Shown: piece by piece, positions 48,665 to 63,844 of the stretch | How the letters are laid out: each line of letters starts with the position of its first letter | Position numbering within the stretch: position 1 is the stretch's first letter | NCBI GenBank assembly: GCA_021776135.1 | Contig: JAJFGL010000054.1 | Span: 1-64,000 of the forward strand | Source of the DNA: Kiloniellaceae bacterium | Lineage (GTDB): Bacteria; Pseudomonadota; Alphaproteobacteria; Kiloniellales; J153 | Length of the DNA stretch: 64,000 nucleotides | Direction of reading: 5' to 3' | Notes under the pieces: generated by a model | Databases searched by the model: none | What the model was told of the DNA's origin: nothing | What the model saw: only the letters and a program-made list of their open reading frames with translations | Position numbers and translations under genes: made by a program

Positions 48665-49021
48665 TCATTTTGCCAAGACGGTTATTTCGCCACGCATTTT
48701 TGGGTGATAAAGGCATAGGTACGATTCGATGCCGGGGGAAGAAAACACAATCCCGGCGGACTGGCCCTTTTTCAATTTTCCCGTATCCCAGGCCTTATCT
48801 TTCTTGGTCACCGTATGCGGTACGATGTCGCGATTGATCCATTCAACCGTATCGCCTTGCCGGACGGTCAGCTTCGCGGGGACGAATTTGAACCCCTGTA
48901 TCTCAACAACGTGGTGGCGCTGCGCCGCCTGACTCGCGGTGAAGGTCGATAAGACGAGGGCGATGAGAATTGTGGCAGACAAAGCTGCCACAATCGCTCC
49001 CAGTTTCGATGGCTTGCGCAT
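48665..49021 (-). CDS. Amicyanin/plastocyanin-like cupredoxin
   Basis: 118 residues with a signal peptide (LGAIVAALSATILIALVLSTFTASQAA). Type-1 copper ligands are visible: His in DIVPHTVT and Cys, His, Met in YLCLYHPKM, the CxxHxxM spacing of amicyanins. It starts 6 bases after the DUF4142 stop, last in the operon headed by cytochrome P460, so it is a plausible electron acceptor for that cytochrome. Confidence 0.9.
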   Translation of the reverse strand: MRKPSKLGAIVAALSATILIALVLSTFTASQAAQRHHVVEIQGFKFVPAKLTVRQGDTVEWINRDIVPHTVTKKDKAWDTGKLKKGQSAGIVFSSPGIESYLCLYHPKMRGEITVLAK

Positions 49022-49027
49022 CGGTGA

Positions 49028-49576
49028 TTACTGAGCCATGGACTGACGTTGCATCAAACTGCCGGCCATGGTCTCGGCATGGGCTTCATGGGCCTCGAAG
49101 ATGGCCAAGGCCTGCTGGAACAGGGCTTTCATTTCGGCGTTCTCGATATTGGGGATGAAGGTCTTTCCCACCAGGTCATTGACCGCTTTATGGTAACCGT
49201 GTTCGTTTTCGGCATAACGCAAGTCGAAATCCTTCCCGCTCAGCATGCTCATCTCGGCGACCAGCTTGTCGGCGTTTTCTGAAAGCTGACGGCTGAGGAA
49301 ATTGTCCTGCGGTTGGACCTTGAGTTTCTTCAGCAAGGCCAAAGCCAGCTCGTTCACCACCGTATGATCCCGGATCATGGTGTTGGCGAAGTCGTGGATC
49401 TTGGGATCCTTGGAGATCGCGAGCGCCAGGTGCGCATAGCGGATGTCGATATTGTCCGCCGTATAGGCGACGTGGGCGATCTCGAGATCGTTCAGCTCGG
49501 CCGGCGATTCGGCTTGGGCCGCGGTGTGGGTCAAGGTAACGGCGGCCAGGGCCGCGATAAGCGTTCTTTTCAACAT
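49028..49576 (-). CDS. DUF4142 (ferritin-like) periplasmic protein
   Basis: 182 residues with a signal peptide ending near AQA-ESP. The helical body (LNDLEIAHVAYTADNIDIRYAHLALAISKDPKIHDFANTMIRDHTVVNELALALLKK) has the His and Asp/Glu spacing of DUF4142, a ferritin-like four-helix family. Its members are thought to bind metal or respond to oxidative stress, without proven activity. It lies between the P460 and cupredoxin genes. Confidence 0.85.
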   Translation of the reverse strand: MLKRTLIAALAAVTLTHTAAQAESPAELNDLEIAHVAYTADNIDIRYAHLALAISKDPKIHDFANTMIRDHTVVNELALALLKKLKVQPQDNFLSRQLSENADKLVAEMSMLSGKDFDLRYAENEHGYHKAVNDLVGKTFIPNIENAEMKALFQQALAIFEAHEAHAETMAGSLMQRQSMAQ

Positions 49577-49657
49577 GAGTCGACTCTCTTTTCTAGTTTG
49601 GGTTATGAGGCAGAGCCTCTTTGGTTTTCGAGGCTGGGCCTCGGGGGGACGAGACTG

Positions 49658-49685
49658 CTTTGGCGGCGCCGCGGTGCCGCCAAAG
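49658..49685 (-). terminator. Hairpin between the P460 and DUF4142 genes
   Basis: CTTTGGCGGC (49658-49667) pairs with GCCGCCAAAG (49676-49685). There is no T-run; it may attenuate transcription or stabilise the message between the two genes. Confidence 0.5.
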
Positions 49686-49712
49686 GCAATTTCTTGGTTC
49701 TTAAAAGGCGCG

Positions 49713-50318
49713 CTATTTAGCGTTCAGGATATGACTGTAGAATTTGCTGAACACCATCTCGGTGGCATTGTCGATATGACATCCGGCGCAGGCCTCCGTG
49801 GGCATCGCCGCCGCTGTTTTCGCGTAAGGCGGTGCATGATGTCCGAAATTAAAAAATCCCCAGCCGTTGGTATCCTTGAAGCGCACGCTGTCCTTGACCG
49901 AGATATCGATTCCATTGCGCGCGCCGGGGAAGAATCCGCGCCCCGAGGCTTCGACTCTGGATCCATCCGGATTCTCGCCCGGCAAGGTGAGTTGGAGTTC
50001 CTTGAGTAAGATCGTGCCTTCCGGCCAGACGCCGGTTTCCCGGTAGATTTTCAAAGGCTCCGCCTGAACGTAAACGTTGTGATATTCCGGAAAGCCAGCC
50101 TCGCCGTCGTTGAGGGCATTGGGTGTCAGCGGCGAACCCAAGAACACCCACGCGTGGTAACCGCGCGGCAGAACCAACTCGTCCGCCGCCGTCCATTCCG
50201 GGCCCCATGACGGGCCGGACTGCGCGTTAACCGCAATCGCGACACTCGCGGCGACCCAGATGCCCGCGACCAGCACCGCTGTTTGGATGGCACGTCCGGC
50301 AAATCTATTCATGCTCAT
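49713..50318 (-). CDS. Cytochrome P460 family protein
   Basis: 201 residues; the ATG is preceded by GAGGGG. The signal peptide (TAVLVAGIWVAASVAIAVNAQS) is followed by the P460 beta fold (RGYHAWVFLGSPLTPNALNDGEAGFPEYHNVYVQAEPLKIYRETGVWPEGTILLKEL) and a single haem motif EACAGCHIDNATEMVFSKFY near the C-terminus. P460 cytochromes oxidise hydroxylamine or handle NO, though many homologues have unknown substrates. It is first in the group with DUF4142 and the cupredoxin, facing a TetR regulator. Confidence 0.9.
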   Translation of the reverse strand: MSMNRFAGRAIQTAVLVAGIWVAASVAIAVNAQSGPSWGPEWTAADELVLPRGYHAWVFLGSPLTPNALNDGEAGFPEYHNVYVQAEPLKIYRETGVWPEGTILLKELQLTLPGENPDGSRVEASGRGFFPGARNGIDISVKDSVRFKDTNGWGFFNFGHHAPPYAKTAAAMPTEACAGCHIDNATEMVFSKFYSHILNAK

Positions 50319-51142: not shown

Positions 51143-51664
51143 CTAGCCGCCGGCGGCTTCTTGCGAACCTTGAAAGTGCAGGGGATTTTCGCTCGGCCGT
51201 GCTTTTTCCGGCGGCGGCGGCGGCGGCGCGGCATAGAAAACCTTCTCGCGCTCATCCACGGAGCTTTCGAAGGGCTTGCGCATCTTGACCGGGACGCCCG
51301 AGTCCTCTGACTCCCGCTCCGCCCCTCGCAGTTGCCGGGCGAGGGTTTCATCCCAGGGCAGGGTGTAGGCGCGCGGTTCCTCGACACCGGGCATGCCGAG
51401 CCATAGGTAAATCGCCTTGTCTTCCTCCATGCGCGAGCCCAGGACCGTGGCTTCGGCCAGATTTAGCCGCGCCAGTTCCAACCCGGCCGGTTTCGGCCGG
51501 CTCAACATTTCCAGCAATCCAAAATATCCAGCCGGCAAGAAGACCGCGACCACGCCCAAGACTCCGATCTTGACCCACACCCGGCGCGGCGACCACAAGG
51601 CCACGCTGGCCAGAATTCCCGCAAGGCCCCCTAAAAGGCCGAAAATCATCAAAAGCCCGTTCAT
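51143..51664 (-). CDS. Membrane protein with proline-rich tail, third gene of the MotA/ExbD-like operon
   Basis: 173 residues. Two N-terminal membrane helices (LLMIFGLLGGLAGILASVALW, VWVKIGVLGVVAVFLPAGYFGLLEML) are followed by a soluble part with a poly-Pro run (FYAAPPPPPPEKARPSE). There is no known domain. The ATG overlaps the stop of the ExbD-like gene by one base. A Pro-rich tail after a membrane anchor recalls TonB/TolA energy transducers, but the homology is not evident. Confidence 0.75.
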   Translation of the reverse strand: MNGLLMIFGLLGGLAGILASVALWSPRRVWVKIGVLGVVAVFLPAGYFGLLEMLSRPKPAGLELARLNLAEATVLGSRMEEDKAIYLWLGMPGVEEPRAYTLPWDETLARQLRGAERESEDSGVPVKMRKPFESSVDEREKVFYAAPPPPPPEKARPSENPLHFQGSQEAAGG

Positions 51665-52269
51665 CAAGACCCCCGCTTCGAGCGCAGGGCCTTGGGCAGA
51701 TCGTGAACGCTGCCAGCGACCAGCTTGCCATCTGCCAGAAGCTCGAAGCGGAACGCGGTGGTCTCCTGACCCTGATGAGTCAAGAGCAGCTTGGTATTGA
51801 GGATTCGCTTGGCCGAGACCTGAGCCGATGTTTTGACGCTGACCGAAACCGCGACGGGAAGCGGCAGGATGTTGGACATATCGCGGTACAGGTGGACATT
51901 GACGATATACTCGCCGGGTTCGATACCCCGGCTGTAGGAAACTTCGTAATTGATGTTGGTCACATCGGCCTGTCCGCCCAGATCGTCGCGCAGGAGATTG
52001 AACAGCACGCCGCCCTTGTTGGAATACCCGACGGGCACGTCGCCCGGGGCCTGAACCCAGAGGTCGACATCGGCGTCGATCGTATCCGGCCAAGAAATCT
52101 CTACGATCACGTTGCCCGGCGCCGGCGCGCCATCGTTCGCGGTGGCCGGCGGATTCAGATGCGGCAGCAGCAGCAGAACCATGGCCACGAAACCGGCCAA
52201 CGCCAGGAATATGACGTCCCGGAAAACCGTGTTGGTGCCGTCGTCATCGAGATCGTCAAGCGGGTACAT
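51664..52269 (-). CDS. ExbD/TolR-like anchor fused to an unknown periplasmic beta domain
   Basis: 201 residues. The short cytoplasmic start and helix NTVFRDVIFLALAGFVAMVLLLLPHL align with the ExbD/TolR membrane segment, with Asp18 (FRD-VIF) at the place of the proton-path Asp (FID-VML). The periplasmic part (VIVEISWPDTIDADVDLWVQAPGDVPVGYSNKGGVLFNLLRDD, GIEPGEYIVNVHLY) is a beta-sandwich-like domain resembling YfaP/DUF2135-type modules, not the ExbD C-terminal domain. It overlaps the MotA-like gene by 14 bases. Confidence 0.75.
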   Translation of the reverse strand: MYPLDDLDDDGTNTVFRDVIFLALAGFVAMVLLLLPHLNPPATANDGAPAPGNVIVEISWPDTIDADVDLWVQAPGDVPVGYSNKGGVLFNLLRDDLGGQADVTNINYEVSYSRGIEPGEYIVNVHLYRDMSNILPLPVAVSVSVKTSAQVSAKRILNTKLLLTHQGQETTAFRFELLADGKLVAGSVHDLPKALRSKRGS

Positions 52270-53038
52270 TTTCCTCCCCGAACTCCAGCAGCCCCGAAAG
52301 CAGCTTGACGGTGCCGCCGGCCAGAAGGTGATAGTTGGCCATGAGCCACACATTCAGGACCGAACCGACCAAGGTGGTGTAGAGCGCCGTCGACATGCCG
52401 GCGATAAGCGTCGACACCATGGGCGTGATGGCCTTTACGTCGGCGGCCTGATCCGGCTTGACCCCGGACAGCGCGATAATGAAGCCGACCACGGTCCCAA
52501 TCAGACCTAAGAGCACCAAGCTGGCCGCGATCTGACGCACGATCGCGATGCGGTGGGTCAGCTTCAGGCGCAAGGCGGCGGCGATAATACTCCGGCTGTT
52601 GCTGTCATGGCCCCGGATCTGCGAAAGGTATTCCGAGGCTTTGGATTGGCGTAGCGGATCGAAGGATTTGATTTGATTGAGCTCGCGGCTGGTCCCCCAC
52701 ACCTTGGCGGCGCAGATGCCCAAGCCGCACAAAAACACCAGCGAGATAACGACGCTCAGGTAAGTTTGGTCGGAGACGAGCGCAAGCTCGACCAGCCCTT
52801 GCGAATAGGCGGCGCCAAGGACCGCGAAACCGAAGAGGTTGATGAGCGTGAAGCGTAACACCAGCACAAAATGATAGGGGGCGGTGTTTTTCCCTGCCGC
52901 CTTGTTCGCGAGCCAGGCAAGCCGGCTGGCATCGCGCGCGTCCGCTTCGCCGGCCGGTCCGGCGTCCTCGCGCACGACCGCCGGGCCCCGTGCCGCATGT
53001 CCCATTTCCGAAGCTACTACCGGTATCGCCATCGGCAT
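52256..53038 (-). CDS. MotA/TolQ/ExbB-family proton channel
   Basis: 260 residues; GGAGC before the ATG. About 55 polar cytoplasmic residues, then membrane segments near 58-82 and 93-115, a cytoplasmic loop, and helices near 165-190 (IVRQIAASLVLLGLIGTVVGFIIAL) and 203-230 (TPMVSTLIAGMSTALYTTLVGSVLNVWLMANY). The GLIGTVVG block is the family hallmark of channels that use the proton-motive force. First gene of a tightly overlapped three-gene operon with an ExbD-like and a Pro-rich protein; no tol-pal, ton or flagellar gene is near. Confidence 0.85.
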   Translation of the reverse strand: MPMAIPVVASEMGHAARGPAVVREDAGPAGEADARDASRLAWLANKAAGKNTAPYHFVLVLRFTLINLFGFAVLGAAYSQGLVELALVSDQTYLSVVISLVFLCGLGICAAKVWGTSRELNQIKSFDPLRQSKASEYLSQIRGHDSNSRSIIAAALRLKLTHRIAIVRQIAASLVLLGLIGTVVGFIIALSGVKPDQAADVKAITPMVSTLIAGMSTALYTTLVGSVLNVWLMANYHLLAGGTVKLLSGLLEFGEENVPA

Positions 53039-53258
53039 ATCCGCTCCTATACTGCGGGAATCGCGGCGCCATGACGGCGGGCTTGGACAATTCCCGTGTC
53101 CCTCCAGCTCAGCCCGGACGATACCTAATTCAATTTTCAGGATAGCCTGGGCTGGCGACAGTCAACTATGGCGGGTCAAGGTAAACAGGCGATTAACCTT
53201 AACGGCGCGGCTGGGCGAGCCTTACGATCCGGGATGACGACGTTAATGGGTATGCGGC

Positions 53259-58835: not shown

Positions 58836-59501
58836 ATGAACCAGAGGGTTGGTCGCTGGTCCCGCTGTTTATTGGTTGCGGGAATCTGTACCGCGAATAT
58901 TTGGCTTGCCGCCTGCAGCACCGAGGAAATCATCGGCAGCACCGTTGGCGCCACAATTCTGGGGGCGAACTCGCCCTCGCAGGAAATTCAGCAAATCTAC
59001 TACCTCGGGGCGTTCGACCCGCAGGGACAACTGCCGCCGACGGTCTACCGCATCAGGGTCCACGGCCAGGCCAGCTTCATCAGCTTCGTGCGCTTCGCCA
59101 GCGGTTGGGTGCCGGCGCGGTTTATCGATTCGCTGAGCTCCGATGTCAGCTTCGGCGCGGATAAATCCACCGCCGTGCAAATCGATAAGGGGGCATCGGA
59201 CAAGCTTGCCAAGCTTACCACCGGCCGGCGGCTCATGCAGTTCGGCCCGGAGGGATTCCGCGAGGCGCCGAAAGACCATCGCCTGGTCATAGTGATGGGC
59301 TCGAGCCCGGAAAGCTTCTTCAGCGCGATCGACGAGTCGGTCGGTATCATCGCCCAGGCGCAAGCCGAACAGCGCGACAATAAGCTCGACCGGCAGCTGT
59401 TCGAGGCGCTTGCGGCCCTGCGCGATGAGCGCGAATCCCTGAACGCGCTCGACCGGCAGATCGACGCCGAGCTCGCACCGCCCAAGAGGCCAAGCTCTTG
59501 A
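58836..59501 (+). CDS. Lipoprotein, 221 residues, first gene of a lipoprotein operon
   Basis: ATG with GGGAGG upstream. The signal peptide ends in a lipobox IWLAACS with Cys27. The mature part (STVGATILGANSPSQEIQQIYYLGAFDPQGQLPPTVYRIRVHGQASFISFVRFASGWVPARFIDSLSSDVSF) is beta-rich; the last 60 residues (AQAEQRDNKLDRQLFEALAALRDERESLNALDRQIDAEL) form a coiled coil. I know no family for it. It overlaps the 1448-residue lipoprotein gene by 4 bases. Confidence 0.8.
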   Translation: MNQRVGRWSRCLLVAGICTANIWLAACSTEEIIGSTVGATILGANSPSQEIQQIYYLGAFDPQGQLPPTVYRIRVHGQASFISFVRFASGWVPARFIDSLSSDVSFGADKSTAVQIDKGASDKLAKLTTGRRLMQFGPEGFREAPKDHRLVIVMGSSPESFFSAIDESVGIIAQAQAEQRDNKLDRQLFEALAALRDERESLNALDRQIDAELAPPKRPSS

Positions 59502-62500
59502 CGGCCGCAGCCGCGGTGCTTCGCCCGCTCGCCCTAGGCGCAGCAATCGCCCTGCTCACCGGCTGCGCGGTGATGCGGATCGACGTTGACGTATATAAGG
59601 GCCCCCTTGCCGACGAGATTGACGTGCAGACCCAAGAATTTGTCGCCATGGCAATCGGCGCCAAGCCACTCTTGATCCAGCTTCGGGACCTTCTGCAGTG
59701 GCCGAAAGATGAAGACCGAGAATGTGCCAGGAACCAAAAGTCTCCTGACTACGAGGCGGGCTATTTTGTCGGTCCTCATAAGGCACAGCCGAATGGCGAA
59801 GATTGTCCACTTGGTGCCCCTGACCACTGGAACGAGCGCGCCGAACGTGTCAACGGCGTTTTAAGTCTTTATCTGCACATCGACGACGTCCGCGCAAGAG
59901 ACCGAACTAGTCCCAGTCCACTCGAAACATCTATAATAAACGGGCTCGTCCAGGGGGATAAATTCAAGGAACAGCTAGGTGTCTTCAATAATCTGGATAA
60001 GCCTGAGCAGGCTCTTTGGAAGACGTTTGACAACGAAATCACGAAAAACTTGGATGCTATTGAGAATAAATATAAGGGCCTTCTCAATCTGCAACCCTCG
60101 GATAAGTTCTTTAATAATCTCAAGACAGCAGCGAATGCGTTAAAAAATAAATACCGTGAAATCTTCAATTCACAAAGGAACGGGCCATCGCATCGAACAG
60201 TCAAGGGGCTAATTATTGTATTCAACAATTATATCAATGTACTGGATACACAATTAACAGCATCACTCAAAAAACAGCGATCAACTAATATTAGAAATAA
60301 AATAAACGACGAAGCCGCAAGTGTCCGTGCATCTAGAAAAAGACTCAAGACGCGCTTGGAAGGTCACGACGCGTCAGAGGCAACGGGTCGTGTTTTCGAG
60401 TATTGGCTGTTGAGTGACGCTGAAATTGTCTCGGATCATGCGAAGATACTTTTCGGTAGCGCCAAATCTCCGACCGCGGAGAAATTTATCGCGCGCGTGG
60501 TTGAGAAAGCCGGCGCCTATTTCGGGATGCGCAAGGCCATTCGAAACATGTGGCTTGTAGCGCTCGACAGCTTGATCTTGATTGATTCGGAAAAGTTCGT
60601 TTTTCCCGAAAAGAAGACCGCGCTTATCGCGCTCGCGGCTGATCTAATCAGCGTATTGAGCCAACCAGAACACATTGCCGTGGCGACCAACATTCCCGTG
60701 AGCAAGGCTTTCAACGGAACTCTTAAACAACTGAAACGGTTCCTGGATGAGACCGGGCACGGCATCTGGGATCCCCCGCCTTCTTCTAAGTCTATTTCCG
60801 ACATCGTCTGGGACTTTGACGTCATCAATCGCTCTGTTCGCCTAGCTGTTGTAAAGCGGCCGACGGAAATGGCCAAACTTCTCATTGAGGCGGACGCCAC
60901 TCTCAAGGAATTTGCAAAGCGGGAAATCATTAAACTAAAGAACCAATCCCTACCCTCGCCTCGATCTCTTGCGCGTGAGGTATCGCTTCTGGAATTAAAT
61001 CTGTTCGGTTTGTCGCGCGGGCCCTCGTTCGGTGACGCTGAAAAGGAACTGAGGCTCGTTGATATTAAATCAAATCTCCAATCACAGAAAAATACAATTG
61101 GCAGAGGGACGGCTGGCCTGGACAAGGGTCGCCTAGAGAAAGGGATCGAGGATCTTATCAAGGAGTATCTCGAGGCATCGACGCAGCCGGCATCCAGTGG
61201 AAATAAGCCCGACACCATCAAGGTGACGCGCAAGGTGGAGCGAGACAATTTGCTCGAAGCATTGGTCCGGTTCTCGAAAAAGATCCTGATTATCGCAGAC
61301 AACGACAAACTCCTACGGGACCCTTTGTCCGATACAGGAACGAAACTCGACCGCTATGTTCTCGTCTTGCAGGCGATCGGGAACTCGATCCGCATCCAAG
61401 CCGATGAGCTAAAGCAGCGCGAAAAACACGAAAAGAAGCTTGAAGACAGAACTTACGCGGAGGCCTGGGCGGTGGAAACGGCATTGGCACGCTCCGCCAA
61501 ATCTGTGATAGAGGATGTTCTTGCTGAGCTAAAAAGCTTGCAAGAGAGTGCCAGCAAAGACATCGCGGACTCGAAGAAGAGGGCCGACGATGCCAGCGGG
61601 AAATTCAAGCAGATCGAAACCACAGCTCTGAAAGCGCAGACTGACGAGAAAGTAGCAAAGGCCGCCCTGCAGCGCGCAATGCAAGACCTGGAAACTCTTA
61701 TGAACAAGCAGCCACAGTATGATGCGGCGGTCCAGATATTGACTAATACGGGCGGAATATCGATTCCCGACTTCATAAAGACGAACTCCAGCGAACCGGA
61801 TGTCGGCGGCGCCAAGATGGCCGATGAAATTCTTGCCTGGCTAAACAAAGAAAAGCAAAAGCATCTGACGAATTTTCCCAAGAAGATGCGGCTTGAAAAT
61901 GCGGTCGCTTTCTTCTCCGCCGACCCGTCAACCGTCCGGGGTTTCGATTCGATGCCTCGTGCCGATGTTCTCAAGGAAATGGCCAAGGTTGCCAATTCCA
62001 ACCTTCAAGAAATCAAGAAAAAAATCGCCGCGACAAAGTCTCTGATCCTTAAATTGCAATCAAACGCTAAGAACTTTGCGCGGGCCCTTGAAGACGCGAA
62101 TAAGGATAAAGCCAAGGGAGAATTCGCGGTGACATCGGAGGCAACTAAACTTCGTACCGCGACCGAATCCAAAGCTCACCTCGAACTCGCAGTCGCCGCG
62201 GTTCGCGAGGTCTTGACGAAAGTCATACTTACAACGCAACAAGCGGAAGCTTCAGATTCCGCGGCGGCAGTCTTTTGGACCATCGTTGCGGTGGTCAATC
62301 AAGAGCTTGTCGCCGCGACGGCGGCGTCTGAAGCGGCGCCGAACAACAAGGAAGGGAAAGCCAAGCAGAAGCGGTTTCAAGCCGCGGCCGACGTGTTGCG
62401 GGCCATCAACCCGCCGTTGGAAAAGAACATCTTTGCGGGACTAAAAGATAATACGGGTTACGACAGGAAGAATGCGCGCGTTGTTTTAGACGAGATGATC

Positions 62501-63844
62501 GCGCTGCTTCGTCATGAGCATATCCTTGCCGTTCGTCAATGGGGCGAGGACAGCCCAAGGGCCAGACACATTAACAACGCACTGGCGACCGCTTACGAGC
62601 AACGGGCGGGCATGACATACATCCGTCCATCGGGTGCCTATCTGCGCAGCAGCTATCCGGCGACCGCGTTGCAGGACGATCCCCGGCTGGGCTGGAGCAA
62701 CATGCTGGGACAGCACGGGTTTCGGACCCTGCCCTTCATCGGGGGCGCCTTTGCGCACAGCCCGGATGAGCGAAAGCGGCTCGAAATTCAGAGCGAAATC
62801 GACAAGCAGTTCTGGCAGACGATCAACAGCGTTCGGGTCGCCGGCGCGGGGATCACGAACTACGTCATGGCCAAGGACGACATCGGCAACTGGTACGTCA
62901 AGAGTTACTCGGCCAATCCCGCGCCGATTATCAAATCCGCTAAGAGTCTCGCGCTGCTTGGCTTGGGCGGTCAATTCGACTCGAACCTCGTCTCCAAGGT
63001 ACGCGACCAAAAAGGCATAGATCCCGAGAAGGACGATGAATCCACACCGGCAACAGGCATGGGGCGTCTGCTCGAAAAGCATCGAAGCAAGTATGCTAAG
63101 ACGACCGGCGAAGATTACACTGCACTCAAGAACCTCGTGGATAGTTCGGCCACGTCGCCAATTGTCACGGACCTAAATCAAGCACTTCGATCCAACAGGG
63201 ACACGAAGGATGCGACCTGGCTCGGCGATCTTGAGACGTCGGTCGAAACAGCGAGCGGCGAAGCGCTAACGACTGCCAAGGGCCGCCTTACGGACAAAAA
63301 GGACCCGGCAGAGCAAGCCTTGGAGATCAATGTTGCGCTCACCGAGGTCAAAACCTTTTACCCGATCTTCCAGGCGAAGTTGCAGGCACTAGATATTGTG
63401 ACCAATGCAAAGAAGGACTTAGCAAGCGATCAGAAACAACTGAAGACTCTCGAGTCTGAACGCGCGGCAAAGCAAAGTGAGCTGGAGGCTGCCAAGATTG
63501 AATTGGCGGAAAAGCCGGAGGACCTGGGCTTGCAAAATGAGATCGAGCGGCTCACTGGAGAACTCGCGGCAAAGCAAACGGCGGTGGATGAAGCTCAAAA
63601 GAGGGTGCATGATGCTGAACAAAAGGTTACGAGCGCCGGTAATGCCGAGGCAACGGCACTGAGTGAGGCGGCGCGCATTGTTCGAAAGCACTTGAAACGC
63701 GTCACCGTCCGGCGCTTTAAGGCGGTTGACGATTACGAAACCGCTGTCATATTCATCGGCGATGCGAACAACCCGCCCAAGAAGGAACAGACTAAATCTG
63801 GAGAGACTTCACCGGGCACAGGTGGAACTGGCTCCTCGCCGTAA
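59498..63844 (+). CDS. Giant coiled-coil lipoprotein, 1448 residues, unknown function
   Basis: Starts with TTG overlapping the previous stop, AGAGG upstream. Lipobox ALLTGCAV with Cys23. No known domain is recognisable. Helical, charged sequence predominates, with coiled-coil stretches at about residues 640-740, 820-910 and 1297-1400 (for example KDLASDQKQLKTLESERAAKQ). A more globular block lies at about 1022-1170 (TYIRPSGAYLRSSYPATAL, LGWSNMLGQHGFRTLPFIGGAF), and the tail is Gly/Ser/Thr-rich. Base composition between 59.9 and 62.3 kb is distinctly A+T-richer than in the housekeeping genes, a sign of transfer. It could be a large envelope-spanning scaffold. Confidence 0.8.
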   Translation: MTAAAAVLRPLALGAAIALLTGCAVMRIDVDVYKGPLADEIDVQTQEFVAMAIGAKPLLIQLRDLLQWPKDEDRECARNQKSPDYEAGYFVGPHKAQPNGEDCPLGAPDHWNERAERVNGVLSLYLHIDDVRARDRTSPSPLETSIINGLVQGDKFKEQLGVFNNLDKPEQALWKTFDNEITKNLDAIENKYKGLLNLQPSDKFFNNLKTAANALKNKYREIFNSQRNGPSHRTVKGLIIVFNNYINVLDTQLTASLKKQRSTNIRNKINDEAASVRASRKRLKTRLEGHDASEATGRVFEYWLLSDAEIVSDHAKILFGSAKSPTAEKFIARVVEKAGAYFGMRKAIRNMWLVALDSLILIDSEKFVFPEKKTALIALAADLISVLSQPEHIAVATNIPVSKAFNGTLKQLKRFLDETGHGIWDPPPSSKSISDIVWDFDVINRSVRLAVVKRPTEMAKLLIEADATLKEFAKREIIKLKNQSLPSPRSLAREVSLLELNLFGLSRGPSFGDAEKELRLVDIKSNLQSQKNTIGRGTAGLDKGRLEKGIEDLIKEYLEASTQPASSGNKPDTIKVTRKVERDNLLEALVRFSKKILIIADNDKLLRDPLSDTGTKLDRYVLVLQAIGNSIRIQADELKQREKHEKKLEDRTYAEAWAVETALARSAKSVIEDVLAELKSLQESASKDIADSKKRADDASGKFKQIETTALKAQTDEKVAKAALQRAMQDLETLMNKQPQYDAAVQILTNTGGISIPDFIKTNSSEPDVGGAKMADEILAWLNKEKQKHLTNFPKKMRLENAVAFFSADPSTVRGFDSMPRADVLKEMAKVANSNLQEIKKKIAATKSLILKLQSNAKNFARALEDANKDKAKGEFAVTSEATKLRTATESKAHLELAVAAVREVLTKVILTTQQAEASDSAAAVFWTIVAVVNQELVAATAASEAAPNNKEGKAKQKRFQAAADVLRAINPPLEKNIFAGLKDNTGYDRKNARVVLDEMIALLRHEHILAVRQWGEDSPRARHINNALATAYEQRAGMTYIRPSGAYLRSSYPATALQDDPRLGWSNMLGQHGFRTLPFIGGAFAHSPDERKRLEIQSEIDKQFWQTINSVRVAGAGITNYVMAKDDIGNWYVKSYSANPAPIIKSAKSLALLGLGGQFDSNLVSKVRDQKGIDPEKDDESTPATGMGRLLEKHRSKYAKTTGEDYTALKNLVDSSATSPIVTDLNQALRSNRDTKDATWLGDLETSVETASGEALTTAKGRLTDKKDPAEQALEINVALTEVKTFYPIFQAKLQALDIVTNAKKDLASDQKQLKTLESERAAKQSELEAAKIELAEKPEDLGLQNEIERLTGELAAKQTAVDEAQKRVHDAEQKVTSAGNAEATALSEAARIVRKHLKRVTVRRFKAVDDYETAVIFIGDANNPPKKEQTKSGETSPGTGGTGSSP

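Follow-up and report, generated by a model that had tools for sequence, protein, structure and literature searches.

The known motors of 5:2 type power flagella and gliding, serve nutrient receptors and act in constriction of the cell envelope and in phage defense. In the parts consulted of a paper from 2025, axle helices bearing foreign vWA heads on TolQ-like pentamers are described (PMC12204202), and passages of PMC12505986 mention motor subunits outside flagella that bear additional domains. Here we analyze three overlapping genes, A, B and C, which lie on the minus strand of a 64,000-nucleotide stretch of DNA from a Kiloniellaceae bacterium (contig JAJFGL010000054.1, positions 1 to 64,000; hereafter the window). 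With a probability of about 0.5, their products form an inner-membrane, proton-driven motor of 5:2 type that is tied to periplasmic alcohol oxidation with pyrroloquinoline quinone (PQQ) and a lanthanide (or calcium). The identification as a proton motor is well supported and the link to PQQ moderately so, while the exact task of the trio is what we infer from its company.

Gene A (52256-53038, minus strand, 260 residues) encodes a channel subunit of the MotA/TolQ/ExbB family, as indicated by Pfam, by a profile-versus-structure match and by hydropathy. It passes the Pfam MotA_ExbB model (PF01618) at 35.9 bits, against a cut-off of 22.9, which bears out the MotA/ExbB-like identity proposed in an earlier note on this DNA. 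A profile of 26 relatives matches, among solved structures, MotA (8gqy, E = 5e-6), PomA (E = 0.004) and, weakly, ZorA. Hydropathy peaks at about residues 55-78, 90-117, 162-195 and 210-228, and A probably has four membrane helices, as MotA does. The GLIGTVVG channel block that the same note had picked out is present at residues 178-185 (52484-52507, minus strand) and includes Thr182, with Thr221-Thr222 further on; membership in PF01618 is thus seen both in the profile score and in the channel threonines of the third and fourth helices. Residues G178, G181, T182, G185, T221 and T222 are invariant among 26 aligned A proteins. Across 123 A genes the position of Thr182 holds Thr in 114 and Lys in 4 and is unread in 5; this count, like those of the membrane Asp and of gene order below, covers all loci fetched, some places being counted twice via two collections. 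Two very divergent trios (L157 and L158) have Asn for the channel Thr and adjoin trypsin-like protease genes; L157 also has phage lysozyme- and holin-like genes by eye, and the trio in these two loci may travel on prophages.

Gene B (51664-52269, minus strand, 201 residues) encodes a single membrane helix and a DUF2135/TerD-like periplasmic beta-sandwich. In the AlphaFold2 model, made from a 77-sequence alignment (mean predicted local distance difference test score, pLDDT, 86.7), the helix spans residues 12-38 and is followed by the sandwich that had been anticipated from the sequence, at residues 52-180 (51730-52116, minus strand; pLDDT mostly over 90). The motif FRDVIF lies inside the helix at residues 16-21, and its Asp18 (52216-52218, minus strand) is found in all 77 aligned B proteins and in its usual place in 120 of the 126 B genes that could be read, so that the loss of this Asp in homologues, which would have spoken against the idea of an ExbD-like partner, is not what we find. 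An ExbD/TolR/MotB-like axle is marked by one N-terminal helix that carries an Asp close to its beginning, and B bears this mark as a matter of function, not of family. Eight residues of the head (D67, D69, R94, D95, D96, D102, N107 and E109) are invariant in the 77 sequences, and this acidic cluster looks like the kind that binds Ca2+.

Both structure and sequence profiles were used to place the head of B. When the model was compared with solved structures by VIA-align, TerD ranked first, second, third and fifth (Z 10.8, 9.6, 9.3 and 8.2). The top match, TerD 3ibz, covers 142 residues at 5.0 Å, the fifth comes from a nuclear magnetic resonance study of calcium binding, and the fourth is a Chlamydomonas radial-spoke chain (Z 8.4); below these, at lower Z, come 2lge, a structure solved with calcium, and a number of DUF4425 domains. 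By sequence profile, hhalign relates the whole head to DUF2135 (probability 96.8, E = 3.9e-10). In Pfam itself DUF2135 matches 11 of 28 B members weakly, with a best E of 0.008, and the B protein of the window not at all; the latter has no match at E 1 in Pfam, NCBIfam, PADLOC or PHROGs.

Gene C (51143-51664, minus strand, 173 residues) encodes an OB-like domain that follows a membrane hairpin and precedes a conserved motif in the C-terminal part. The model of C (81 sequences, pLDDT 89.5) has the two membrane helices expected from the sequence, at residues 2-24 and 29-55, and then a domain of bbb-a-b topology at residues 71-129 (51278-51454, minus strand). The best structural neighbors of this domain are OB folds at low scores (eIF5A, Z 6.1; SilF, Z 4.6), no structure reaching Z 8, and the label OB-like is a weak reading of several weak matches to the model. 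Pfam DUF4131, which we take to be the N-terminal region of ComEC, matches 22 of 81 C members weakly (best E = 7e-4). The poly-Pro tail that had been ascribed to C is instead a short conserved motif after the folded domain, FYAAPPPPPPEK (F143-K154; 51203-51238, minus strand), of the form F-x(3)-P-x(6)-K. Across 81 sequences K154 is invariant and P147 is kept in over 90%, F143 is kept in over 90% of 24 sequences, and the motif is partly kept in the distant clade too. The loop between the helices is rich in Arg and Lys, and by the positive-inside rule both ends of C would be periplasmic. Neither B nor C belongs to a named family, and sequence searches gave no convincing solved relative of either.

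The trio is a conserved unit. The three genes overlap by 14 bases (52256-52269) and by 1 base (51664), just as the earlier note had read them, and of 127 B genes 116 stand in the order A-B-C, while contig ends cut 5 of the remaining 11. Among 98 related genomes, 31 have a relative of B, as do 24 of 397 genomes sampled across the phylum, the latter tally leaving out three weak matches whose membrane part is unmatched (G237, G249 and G464, of which the first two are long open frames). Such conservation far exceeds what chance would give, and these counts support the idea of a channel subunit, an Asp-bearing partner and a third membrane protein acting as one unit. The rows of the larger alignments (77 for B, 81 for C) were picked with a 90% identity filter; four rows were set aside for B, one truncated and three in which the pattern missed the start motif, the Asp being seen by eye, and loci L135 and L143 were left out of the B alignment. 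In a tree of 94 B proteins, the clade of the window (75 rows) is separated from a second clade of 19 with full support in the Shimodaira-Hasegawa-like approximate likelihood-ratio test (SH-aLRT).

Among GTDB species genomes, at least 512 of 594 pattern stretches were confirmed as B, and among the 80 listed most are from Alphaproteobacteria, with some from Gammaproteobacteria and a few from oddly labelled metagenome bins. Two such bins, titled Parcubacteria (L085) and Patescibacteria (L111), hold trios of alphaproteobacterial type, and their contigs are probably mis-binned. The non-pathogenic strain Azospirillum brasilense Sp7 carries the trio, as does Tistrella mobilis (L103), and Azospirillum alone supplies the plasmid records with it, mostly without annotation. 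Deviant orders are A-C-B (L049), B-A-B (L143), two C genes (L166) and two A matches (L080), and L142 and L159 have no C by profile. The two B genes of L143 (4306-6123) differ from each other and lie beside a PQQ dehydrogenase; their products possibly form a heterodimeric axle. We found no fixed fourth partner for the whole family. Genes for gamma-glutamyltransferase lie near the trio in 12 clustered loci, chiefly of close relatives, and ABC-transporter ATPase genes near 27 loci were set aside, as ABC ATPases cluster promiscuously. A conserved fourth gene stands just after C in seven loci (L160, L161, L164, L165, L167, L168 and L053). By eye some of its products are lipoproteins (LAAC or LSGC), that of L165 has no NCBIfam match, and a lipoprotein-like gene in this place is absent from 97 of the 98 relatives.

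The new observation here, which has moderate support, is that the trio tracks PQQ. In the 98 relatives, pqqE above its cut-off is found in 25 of 31 genomes with the trio and in 12 of 67 without (p = 3e-9). The same holds for PQQ dehydrogenases, whether counted at 300 bits or more (26/31 vs 15/67, p = 9e-9) or strictly at the curated 480 bits (17/31 vs 14/67, p = 0.001). By family, pqqE occurs in 9 of 13 with the trio and 2 of 32 without, and within a single family (coded f4) in 5 of 5 trio genomes against 2 of 18 others (p = 6e-4). When genomes were permuted within strata of genome size, the observed pqqE count was reached in 0 of 20,000 permutations. In the phylum sample of 397, 20 of 24 trio genomes have pqqE and 20 of 24 a PQQ alcohol dehydrogenase, compared with 71 and 95, respectively, of the 373 others; by genus, 10 of 14 trio genera have pqqE. 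The clade of the window by itself has pqqE in 22 of 26 trio genomes. The genome of the window has pqqE (contig C45) and a PQQ dehydrogenase (contig C34) with an HDVWDLD motif, which scores 462 to 468 bits, just below the 480-bit cut-off, and has a PQQ-catabolism beta-propeller gene near it. Statistical co-occurrence of this kind is what would be expected of quinoprotein accessory genes.

Gene neighborhoods add a physical link, chiefly in the second clade, where the trio lies among genes for PQQ dehydrogenases, cytochromes c and quinoprotein accessory proteins. Profiles confirm PqqB, a SoxYZ-like quinoprotein carrier, a quinoprotein relay metallohydrolase and PQQ dehydrogenases near these trios. 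In L161 and L214, pqqB-C-(D)-E is followed by A-B-C and A starts right after pqqE. In L214, pqqB was identified by NCBIfam profile, pqqE by TIGR02109 (G485) and pqqC and pqqD by eye; in L161, pqqB, pqqC and pqqE were identified by small custom profiles, and pqqE also by a TIGR02109 search (G114). Four loci (L164, L165, L167 and L168) have a lanthanide-type dehydrogenase, a SoxYZ-like carrier, a relay hydrolase or a TonB receptor near the trio. At least 9 of 20 second-clade genomes in the phylum sample have pqqE or a dehydrogenase above cut-off within about 35 kb of B on the same contig (G114, G286, G296, G325, G451, G453, G471, G475 and G485). Of the 5 such genomes among the relatives, at least 3 have a dehydrogenase within about 35 kb of B (G078, G087 and G088), those of G087 and G088 being below the curated cut-off.

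Lanthanide-type dehydrogenases are marked by an Asp two residues after the catalytic Asp, in the pattern D-x-W-D-x-D. This putative signature is present in 10 of the 11 dehydrogenases with a readable motif and absent from that of L055; the pattern gave nothing in the dehydrogenases of L054 and L056.

Several observations weigh against a motor tied to PQQ. The trio of the window has no PQQ genes among its neighbors, and in its clade a PQQ dehydrogenase adjoins the trio only in L070 and L143 of the loci read, so the link in that clade consists mostly of co-occurrence plus these two adjacent cases. The co-occurrence tests carry no full phylogenetic correction and address a question picked after the neighbors had been seen, and presence patterns follow ancestry. 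Genomes with pqqE and no trio number 12 of 37 among the relatives and 71 of 91 in the phylum sample; since many PQQ makers do without it, the trio is an accessory at most. Conversely, the trio occurs without pqqE or a dehydrogenase in three relatives (G004, G061 and G093), and without either above the cut-offs in G195, G262 and G460.

The proton-motor identity meets difficulties of its own. In 6 of 126 B genes (L154-L156, L169, L170 and L166, that is, five genomes of a genus coded g71 plus L166) the Asp is displaced to one helical turn earlier (F-D-P), and these genes carry Lys (LFK) where the rest of the second clade has Asn (LFN). A motor with the displaced Asp and the Lys may be gated in another way or may not conduct. 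Four A genes (L160, L161, L164 and L167) have Lys in place of Thr182 (GLLGK). Together these exceptions mean that some trios are possibly not proton motors. The GLLGK genes belong to the clade whose trio adjoins pqq and dehydrogenase genes. ExbD/TolR (PF02472) was looked for in 28 B members as far as E 10 and matches no member, nor does the ExbD/TolR of NCBIfam match the B of the window at E up to 1. Of the description of B as an ExbD-like protein with a membrane Asp and another head, the Asp and the non-ExbD sandwich therefore stand, and the ExbD/TolR profile match is lacking. Likewise, TerD homology was rejected, as the likeness is one of fold alone: hhalign against TerD (PF02342) gives a probability of 0.1.

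How might such a motor work? By analogy with ExbBD, TolQR and MotAB, A would form a pentameric, Thr-lined proton channel, and two B helices with one Asp each would be the axle within it. Protonation of Asp18 as it faces the Thr ring would step the B helices round; both the 5:2 stoichiometry and the proton flow are carried over from those motors. Proton flow would turn or tilt B, whose periplasmic sandwich, of calcium/lanthanide-type make-up, would be the output. The heads could then pass motion on to C and its partner, with C as a dedicated coupling protein: a hairpin anchor that presents the OB-like domain and the C-terminal motif in the periplasm. Judging from its conserved acidic residues, the head of B may bind metal. 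A head that resembles a metal site, together with the PQQ company, makes delivery or uptake of Ca2+/Ln3+ or of PQQ for quinoproteins the first reading to consider, and the most likely task would be energizing the supply or loading of the quinoprotein metal (Ca2+ or lanthanide) or of PQQ. The strongest form of this idea, a class of proton-driven rotary motor new to science whose Ca2+/lanthanide-binding axle head and OB-domain partner actively load or move metal or PQQ for quinoprotein dehydrogenases, seems to us unlikely as it stands. If true, it would be a 5:2-type motor whose cargo within the periplasm is inorganic or a cofactor.

The same genes could instead encode a general, Tol-like envelope-maintenance motor that exerts a pull on the outer membrane or the cell wall, in which case the tie to PQQ would be ecological or ancestral without being functional. 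The very mixed neighbors and missing fixed fourth gene in the clade of the window fit such a motor, as do the trio genomes that lack PQQ genes, and the lipoprotein-like gene that follows C in the same orientation in seven loci of one clade would suit an outer-membrane tether. It is harder to square with the pqqE association, which persists within family f4 and after control for genome size, with the pqqE-A-B-C arrangement, and with the patchiness of the trio, unlike that of tol-pal; we regard it as possible, though doubtful. A dedicated TonB-like energizer of an outer-membrane receptor for lanthanophore or PQQ uptake, with C in the role of TonB through its C-terminal motif, would explain why A is preceded on its own strand by a TonB-dependent receptor gene that stops 64 bases short of it (L168:5983-8298) and why L164 and L167 have receptor relatives no more than 8 kb from B, that of L167 being weakly similar to PqqU and siderophore receptors. 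The outer-membrane route for lanthanides is moreover given as open for Pseudomonas in the part consulted of PMC12997753. These are three loci only, with none seen in the clade of the window, and C has two helices, shows no SHLS motif on inspection by eye and, over 81 members, has neither TonB nor TolA among its listed Pfam matches; this role for the trio is decidedly improbable.

Two further accounts concern sensing and phage defense. The displaced Asp with Lys in six B genes and the Lys for Thr182 in four A proteins would be at home in a complex that is no motor but a regulated leak or a proton-gated sensor whose Ca/Ln-sensing part is the head of B. In L155 a histidine kinase adjoins the trio, as it does in L156, L169 and L170, which have a LuxR-type regulator as well. 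The large-clade alignments show no variation in the channel Thr or in the Asp, and we give this account very little weight. A Zorya-like anti-phage system was considered on the strength of PADLOC ZorA models, whose best match to A, in its channel block, has E = 1.6e-6. The match spans about 60 residues of the common channel and reaches 21 bits against an NCBI ZorA cut-off of 100, B matches no ZorB profile of NCBI or PADLOC, and the trio is conserved at family level and lies near PQQ genes in one clade. Zorya identity was dropped, because the common channel block alone matches, and it is hardly credible for this locus.

Around the trio in the window, a same-strand universal stress protein gene (assigned by Pfam) lies upstream of A; the gap of 220 bases between them in the open reading frame table (53039-53258) is the probable site of the trio's own promoter. 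Downstream, a convergent gene encodes a TetR-type regulator, and beyond it lie genes for cytochrome P460, DUF4142, a cupredoxin and gamma-glutamyltransferase. Three of these in a row, for the cupredoxin, DUF4142 and cytochrome P460, form a small periplasmic redox cluster (48665-50318). The neighbors read agree with the earlier statement that no ton, tol, flagellar or zorya partner is near, with the limit that tonB, tolA and pal were not scanned for window-wide. Elsewhere in the window, an open reading frame of 1448 residues (59498-63844) has a lipoprotein-like start and, by eye, long coiled-coil-like stretches.

It is instructive to compare the trio with described proteins on each side of its proposed function. 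On the quinoprotein side, accessory genes of the ped/exa clusters (PedA1A2BC, in the part consulted of PMC12997753) are of kinds also present at trio loci of one clade. MotA and ExbB occur 0 times in that text, which places the trio outside the Pseudomonas putida cluster it describes. We found no DUF2135-type head, no such trio and no MotA/ExbB motor in PQQ or lanthanide clusters in the open-access PMC literature, a result that also rests on word finds in PMC12505986, PMC12204202, PMC12997753 and PMC12628762. The same 2026 review, as far as consulted, calls lanthanide passage across the outer membrane of P. putida unresolved (PMC12997753), and the trio, if tied to PQQ and lanthanides, would offer a handle on that question. 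The relatives of the head differ from B in setting. DUF2135, the domain of E. coli YfaP, shares profile homology over the whole head (E = 3.9e-10), but in the compared loci it is found in open frames of 272-1150 residues and not on an ExbD-like helix. The tellurite-resistance and calcium-binding TerD proteins share the fold (Z 8.2-10.8) and the acidic loop cluster, but have no sequence-profile similarity to B. TerD is soluble and cytoplasmic.

On the motor side, the transpore-helix vWA partners resemble B in that an ExbD-like helix bears another periplasmic head; they differ in the vWA head itself, in their mostly heterologous pairs and, in the part of the text consulted, in having no C-like partner (PMC12204202). 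A word search of that text gave no mention of PQQ, quinoproteins or DUFs. Of the new swapped-head motor proposed earlier, the non-ExbD head on an Asp helix is real, but head swapping itself had already been published for vWA (PMC12204202, as consulted). More broadly, the unit of channel, Asp partner and third protein has survived from that proposal and the poly-Pro tail has not, and the context is now PQQ and quinoprotein physiology. With ExbBD-TonB, TolQR-TolA and MotAB, the trio shares the channel family, the Thr block, a partner with an Asp-bearing N-terminal helix, and the order of A then B. It differs in the head of B, a DUF2135/TerD-like sandwich where theirs is an ExbD/TolR or OmpA-like domain, and, from Ton and Tol, in a third subunit that is a hairpin with an OB-like domain and has no TonB/TolA match. 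A further, widespread branch tied to PQQ and lanthanides, with its own head and third subunit, would give 5:2 motors a new output.

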